Source of the DNA: Deltaproteobacteria bacterium
Lineage (GTDB): Bacteria > Myxococcota > JACPTQ01
Assembly: GCA_016192705.1 (NCBI GenBank)
Contig: JACPTQ010000065.1
Span: 9,437 to 48,781, forward strand
Length of the DNA stretch: 39,345 nucleotides
Reading direction: 5' to 3'
Position 1 is the first letter of the stretch. Each line of letters starts with the position of its first letter. Of this stretch, positions 6,197-6,430 are shown one piece after another. The position numbers were made by a program, and so were the translations under genes. The notes beneath the pieces were generated by a model, which searched no databases, was not told the origin of the DNA, and saw only the letters and a program-made list of their open reading frames with translations.

Positions 6197-6333
6197 GTTC
6201 ACCGTCGGTCTCACCCATTTTTCTCGCGCCGGCCCGGTATAGATTTCGGGCTCCGTTCCGTCGCCCTCACCATTTCGCTTGCGCGCTCATGCCGCTGGCA
6301 TTCGCGCAGACCGCAAGCGAAATACCCGCTGGG
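6197..6333 (-). repeat. Dispersed nested-hairpin repeat, copy B (3' of tRNA-fMet)
   Basis: Read on the minus strand. The outer stem is perfect for 11 bp (6312-6322 with 6273-6283) and encloses the inner hairpin ATGCC-AGC-GGCAT (6289-6301). A mini-hairpin CCC-AGC-GGG (6325-6333) precedes it. The family tail (6255-6273) differs from copies A, C and D by one base. A second, diverged tail module (AAAATGGGTGAGACCGACGG, within 6197-6229) follows and matches one in copy D. The element begins 24 bases 3' of the tRNA-fMet end and lies in the sense direction. Confidence 0.8.
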
Positions 6334-6356
6334 TCCCCGGCTAATCGCTCGAAAAA

Positions 6357-6430
6357 TTGAGGGGGCTAGATTTGAACTAGCGACCTTCGGGTTATGAGCC
6401 CGACGAGCTACCAGGCTGCTCCACCCCTCA
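6357..6430 (-). tRNA. tRNA-fMet (initiator, anticodon CAU)
   Basis: 74 bases fold as a full cloverleaf: acceptor TGAGGGG/CCCCTCA, D-stem GAGC/GCTC, anticodon arm TCGGG-CTCATAA-CCCGA, T-arm GCTAG/CTAGC, and discriminator A at 6357. Three consecutive G:C pairs in the anticodon stem and the A11:U24 pair are initiator signatures, and bases 8 to about 48 match the E. coli fMet core from memory. Position 1:72 is a weak U:A pair where E. coli has a C/A mismatch. CCA is not encoded; the next bases form a T-run. The CCA-adding enzyme gene is the neighbour. Confidence 0.97.

Follow-up and report, generated by a model that had tools for sequence, protein, structure and literature searches.

Bacterial genomes commonly contain short palindromic repeats, and the 3' ends of tRNA genes serve integrative elements as att sites, with the tRNA left intact. 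Among the described systems, Rickettsia palindromic elements (RPE) are presented, in the passages of the literature that deal with them, as dispersed palindromes of ~100 bp, many of which lie in-frame within the ORFs of proteins that are likely to be functional (Ogata et al. 2000, 2002; PMC10969869, PMC3733652). REP and BIME sequences are short, high-copy palindromes mobilized by RAYT proteins; they are mostly extragenic, and some lie in ORFs, including tRNA synthetase genes (PMC3733652, PMC2817692). MITEs are likewise non-autonomous and present in high copy (review PMC10969869).

The repeat considered here lies behind the tRNA-fMet and tmRNA genes of the window, i.e. the whole 39,345-nucleotide stretch of DNA that was analyzed. 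Like RPE, it appears as a non-autonomous, lineage-restricted dispersed palindrome with in-frame ORF copies (one in a prolyl-tRNA synthetase (ProRS) gene, and 15-16 sense ORF copies in all). Going only by the description of RPE in the passages cited above, it differs from them in its two-hairpin fold with tandem G-A pairs, its ATTT...NACC ends, its exact preference for tRNA/tmRNA ends, its self-nesting and the unrelated lineage that carries it. With REP/BIME it shares the form of a short, high-copy palindrome that is mostly extragenic and has some ORF copies, one of them in a tRNA synthetase gene, whereas its two-domain fold is larger, it targets tRNA ends, and no Y1 transposase was found in the genome. 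Like MITEs, it is non-autonomous and numerous, and ~53 copies are carried in a MITE whose terminal inverted repeats are of the CCCGGTTAA type; unlike MITEs, the 85-nt element is not itself bounded by terminal inverted repeats, the palindrome making up all of it, and target duplications do not generally accompany it. As with integrative elements at att sites, tRNA 3' ends are targeted and the tRNA remains whole, but the element is gene-free at 85 nt, has no repeat of the tRNA end on its far side and occupies 16 different tRNA/tmRNA genes. It is probably best regarded as an element of the same kind as RPE and REPs whose preference for precisely the 3' ends of tRNA/tmRNA genes appears to be novel. 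A search of the literature on repeats at tRNA 3' ends yielded nothing matching and, to our knowledge, no other short palindromic repeat is placed precisely at the mature 3' ends of over one-third of a genome's tRNA genes and of its tmRNA.

The source genome comprises 5.2 Mb in 88 contigs, one of which includes the window, and is 96.65% complete. Judged from one window protein, its closest named relatives are Polyangiaceae MAGs (41% identity). A covariance model identified at least 147 copies genome-wide among the best 150 scored candidates. Reading of 890 kb around known matches and tRNAs gave 165 non-overlapping copies, and a further 800 kb in the remaining parts of the larger contigs (1.7 Mb read in total) held a single truncated copy, which indicates that the catalog of ~165 is close to complete. 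By our own sorting of these 165, 66 are ordinary copies, 53 are borne by MITEs in a composite of ~0.7 kb with inverted ends, 16 are nested inside another copy, 13 are complete copies abutting a tRNA 3' end, one abuts the 5' end of tRNA-Trp in antisense orientation, and 16 are incomplete, being either truncated or interrupted by the end of a contig. Genes around the copies were called with a simple codon-usage gene finder. Among the genomes searched, the repeat is restricted to the source lineage: it was not found in 38 and ~195 further genomes of the phylum, all from classes other than that of the source genome (the large scans covered the best ~22 candidates per genome), and exact motif scans of the genome contigs of 84,980 species and of viral contigs gave no match. 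Five copies were counted in the window, including a weak one (copy E), where four had been reported from the sequence-only reading (Table 1).

Table 1. Positions of the repeat copies, RNA genes and associated repeats in the window
Feature	Position	Strand	Remarks
MITE-like composite carrying copy A	2136..2848	.	Imperfect terminal inverted repeats CTGATTCCCGGCTAACGG / CCGCTTAACCGGGGATCGG
Copy A, element in MITE	2510..2596	+	63.8 bits; P2 interrupted by insert from 2584
Copy B outer, P2 3' half (CACGGAGGTCGAACCC)	6085..6100	-	
Other palindrome-rich repeat, ~100 nt	6101..6201	-	In P2 loop of outer copy B; also at G000:C84:124
Copy B outer, P1 3' half (GAGAAAAAT) and P2 5' half (GGGTGAGACCGACGG)	6202..6237	-	Reading of sequence
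Copy B inner, complete element	6242..6323	-	In outer P1, directly after ACCC-AGC-GGGT; 91.1 bits; fold
Copy B outer, P1 5' half (ATTTTTCGAGC...ACCCAGCGGGT)	6324..6357	-	Abuts tRNA-fMet
tRNA-fMet (CAU)	6357..6430	-	No encoded CCA; discriminator A (6357) is first base of outer copy B
Copy C, complete	23009..23090	-	Between M28 peptidase gene (ends 23128) and MFS transporter gene, both -; 100.6 bits
Copy E, weak, degenerate, P1-like hairpin	26482..26568	+	21.0 bits; overlaps ParA-like gene stop
tmRNA, tag ANDNAGLALAA	34808..35167	+	
Copy D outer, P1 5' half (ATTTTTGCCGC...CCCAGCGGG)	35168..35200	+	Abuts tmRNA discriminator
Copy D inner, complete element	35201..35283	+	80.0 bits; fold
Copy D outer, P1 3' half (GCGGCAAAAAT) and complete P2	35294..35339	+	35.8 bits

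Other repeats were seen in the same region. Dozens of relatives of the composite at 2136-2848 are present in the genome and carry the 85-nt element on either strand or on both, and many MITE copies share the insert at 2584-2660 on the forward strand (ACCCGAGATCTTTGTGTGCTCGG...GTGCCGCG) that lies in the P2 loop of copy A. The sense frame of copy E provides the C terminus and stop of the ParA-like gene. A gene at 29833-31074 on the reverse strand contains a 144-nt direct repeat in three copies that are 76-83% alike, and a tract with 6/12/18-nt periodicity (29888-30319 and 30839-31006).

Alignment of the copies defined a repeat unit of ~82-85 nt with two hairpins, a long one with tandem G-A pairs (P1) and a short one 3' of it (P2). 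P1 runs as ATTTYGC-GA-GC, a 5-nt bulge, GC, a variable stem, an apex of GCC-AGY-GGC and the mirror arm to a terminal AAAT; P2 runs as GGN-GA-GNNC, a loop of ~11 nt and GNNC-GNA-NCC, followed by NACC. In 52 diverse copies, 90.5% of cells were paired, and double changes were observed at 25 of the 31 pairs. The covariation value was 0.455, compared with 0.148 ± 0.008 in shuffles, and no shuffle or slide came close to it. Individual copies fold as in the model, with z-scores of -3.5 to -8.8. G-T mispairs exceeded A-C mispairs (50 versus 15), which points to the sense strand as the strand that folds. Given that template-switch correction of palindromes also yields paired changes, the covariation is by itself no proof of a function in RNA. 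Two loop types predominate in the ordinary copies, a GACGGAACGGA-type loop in 30 of 66 and a CNNTTTNNG loop lacking ACGGA in 27 of 66. A sponge for CsrA/RsmA, considered on account of the two ACGGA motifs in the loop, was rejected because paired ANGGA would be expected in most copies and nearly half of the ordinary ones carry another loop. With the Rfam 15 covariance models, only tRNA and tmRNA scored above threshold in the window, and a permissive Rfam scan of the fMet site returned chance-level matches only.

All 3' sides of the 42 tRNA/tmRNA genes in the genome were read, and in 16 of these genes a copy in sense orientation is found at the discriminator base or at most one base after it. 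The hosts are tRNA-Thr(cgt), -Gly(gcc), -Thr(tgt), -Gly(tcc), -Lys(ctt), -Val(gac), -Cys, -fMet, -Glu(ctc), -Arg(cct), -Arg(ccg), -Leu(taa), -Leu(tag), -Leu(gag) and -Tyr, together with tmRNA. Both RNA genes of the window (one tRNA-fMet and one tmRNA, by ARAGORN and Rfam) are thus among them. The copies there had been described as lying in sense orientation 24 and 18 bases behind their genes; the orientation is confirmed and the association is tighter than first stated, given that the gaps are only apparent and arise because both sites, in common with tRNA-Thr(cgt), hold nested pairs in which the outer copy adjoins the gene. This outer copy starts at the discriminator base itself in tRNA-fMet and at the base after it in tmRNA. 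The coincidence had further been judged unlikely to be due to chance. Within the window it is unexceptional (p ~0.14, at the genome-wide rate, for both RNA genes carrying a copy), but genome-wide the figure of 16 of 42 lies far beyond random expectation, which by our arithmetic amounts to ~0.0004 exact sense matches (~100 independent copies in ~10.4 million strand positions).

The discriminator base is A or T in all 16 host genes, compared with 30 of 42 genes overall (P ~0.001), and among the 66 ordinary copies, 61 have A or T at position -1. That the same base rule holds at tRNA and non-tRNA sites favors an insertion specificity. The proposal of the sequence-only reading that the element inserts preferentially behind tRNA-like genes is accordingly supported by the number of hosts, their uniformly sense copies, their discriminator bases and the matching rule elsewhere. 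Several host tRNAs are encoded by the sole gene for their anticodon, and the element must therefore be compatible with tRNA maturation.

The placement behind these 16 genes, always in sense and always at the mature end, is also what would be expected of a functional 3' module of stable RNAs, whose hairpin would protect the precursor or direct 3' processing and whose other copies would be escaped duplicates. Such a module would fit with the sense strand being the one that folds, and with systematic differences in the tRNA-resident copies: their T-run has a mean of 5.1, compared with 3.2 in the rest (p = 2e-6), and a 4-bp GGGT/ACCC base of P2 is present in 9 of 13, compared with 5 of 66 ordinary copies, in both loop types. 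Yet 26 of the 42 genes, single-gene isoacceptors included, have no copy; the SRP RNA has none on its contig, and the RNase P RNA has one only at ~200 nt downstream, not abutting. Pairing in the tRNA copies is no better conserved (0.938 versus 0.941 in the others), and the majority of independent copies lie away from tRNAs. A 3' module is, for these reasons, considered unlikely. T-runs also directly follow base 73 at several element-free tRNAs, so the longer T-run may reflect either a T-run at the target or selection for a U-run in termination or processing. Maintained pairing together with the systematic differences could mean function at tRNAs; the tRNA-resident copies may have a tRNA-specific secondary role, and what distinguishes them represents at most a secondary adaptation.

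Beside protein genes, copies were found 3' in sense (7), 3' in antisense (11), 5' in sense (7) and 5' in antisense (7) orientation, i.e. without bias. Bias in orientation and position, the lack of which had been named in advance as evidence against a link to upstream genes, is therefore absent at ordinary genes and present at tRNAs. A general role in 3' processing, termination or protection of transcripts, as had been suggested, is not supported by this result, nor by the ORF-internal copies, the many element-free tRNAs and the finding that neither window copy was called as an intrinsic terminator. The same data weigh on the narrower idea that the element is a transcription terminator (intrinsic or aided by a factor) that has spread behind every kind of gene. 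The T-run that adjoins the tRNA stem at the 5' base of P1 is consistent with termination, as is a T-rich stretch 4-7 nt past P2, but P1 is followed by AATGG instead of a U-run, a GC-rich stem with an immediate U-run was not found, and no intrinsic terminator was called at either window RNA site. With copies also inside ORFs and neither orientation nor 3'-end bias at protein genes, this explanation is very improbable.

Seventeen copies lie inside called ORFs, 16 in sense and one in antisense orientation (15:1 if copy #84, a weak and probably false match, is left out). Open frames through the element are about as numerous in one direction as in the other (142 in sense, 145 in antisense), so this sense bias is real as counted (p = 1e-4), with the proviso that the count may be too low for antisense insertions that truncate a gene: at gene 3' ends, 11 of the ordinary copies are antisense. 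One in-frame copy lies in the ProRS gene (L073:5019-6833, reverse strand), the genome's only ProRS match. It adds ~28-29 amino acids net in the region of the editing domain and is absent from the homologs of two genomes of the phylum.

Sense bias at tRNAs and in ORFs would be expected of an RNA-level element that is reverse-transcribed onto cleaved tRNAs and other transcripts at their 3' ends, and the junctions of the element with tRNA sequences fall at base 73, after the D-arm or at base 33. Three copies break up duplicated tRNA sequences. Copy #114 lies behind base 33 of tRNA-Arg(tcg) and is flanked by an exact 82-bp duplication (L123:3400-3720; G000:C44:124594-124914) of the promoter region and 5' half of that gene; copies #52 and #76 lie behind 24-25-nt tRNA 5' fragments, after the D-arms of tRNA-Leu and tRNA-Ser. 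However, the duplication at #114 extends well beyond the tRNA on its upstream side, 11 of the 37 ordinary copies between genes run antisense to both neighbors, and PF00078 (RVT_1) had 0 matches in the genome, so that no group II intron or retroelement was recognized. Reverse transcription of this kind is thus the least credible of the explanations considered, and we give it almost no weight.

Element-free tRNA 3' halves were observed repeated ~100 nt downstream of tRNA-Ser, -Met and -Glu (L085, L109, L133 and L135), for example ...GCAAGTCCCTGTACCGCCA behind tRNA-Met. These are signs of another tRNA-end duplication process.

The 16 nested copies all lie at the same point in P1 of the host copy, just after CCAGYGG plus A or T. 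The P2 loop is also an insertion point, having received two unrelated repeats (one at 6101-6201 and, in copy A, the insert that starts at 2584). Insertion beside hairpins, such as those of tRNA and of the element's own P1, together with short palindromic form, high copy number and a sense-strand asymmetry compatible with folding of single-stranded DNA, would suit a REP-type element moved on single-stranded DNA hairpins by a RAYT/IS200-605 (Y1) transposase. Against this, PF01797 (Y1_Tnp) had 0 matches in the 96.65% complete genome, although the same search was positive in six control genomes; the 5' flanks of ordinary copies showed no enrichment of hairpins relative to controls, and no GTAG/CGTC-type tag was noted. 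Mobilization of this type is highly improbable. As the ordinary 5' flanks fold no better than controls, hairpin-directed insertion was also rejected as a general rule. Flanking target duplications of at least 14 nt were absent at most sites (shorter ones were judged by eye), and target duplication as a rule was rejected, given that only #114 has a long exact one and that #52 and #76 have short repeats of tRNA fragments.

In summary, the data are best explained by a lineage-restricted, non-autonomous mobile palindrome of ~82-85 nt, directed by A or T and favoring tRNA/tmRNA 3' ends and its own apical hairpin, a reading to which we assign a probability of roughly 0.7. Dispersal and nesting point to mobility. 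Insertion would take place directly 3' of A or T, with a very strong preference both for the exact tRNA/tmRNA 3' end, after discriminator base 73, and for the apical hairpin of copies already present; at other sites, copies would be tolerated between genes, in both orientations, and in ORFs where the frame is kept open. At tRNA ends, the element would be removed with the 3' trailer, probably through RNase Z cleavage after base 73, and would therefore cause little harm. The longer U-run there may have been kept or gained for processing or termination, or may stem from a T-run target. Four observations count against this reading: neither a transposase nor a reverse transcriptase nor an autonomous parent was identified, most sites lack a target duplication, the sense bias in ORFs (16:1 or 15:1) exceeds what plain insertion and open frames would produce, and the distinctive features of the tRNA-resident copies, together with the maintained pairing, could mean a function at tRNAs.

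A more far-reaching version is tentative, and we incline against it: the element may represent a new class of small mobile elements aimed at the structural tRNA-like 3' end (base 73, A or T), with an enzyme that reads the folded sense strand and with tRNA copies secondarily adapted as tolerated trailers. If this were true, adapted copies, with their long U-run and extra P2 pair, would trail many essential single-copy tRNAs and the tmRNA. The finding raises the questions of which enzyme recognizes tRNA ends on behalf of an 85-nt passenger and of how maturation proceeds in tRNA precursors that carry a strong hairpin immediately after base 73. It also points to a further lineage, besides Rickettsia, in which palindromes are apparently translated inside conserved proteins.
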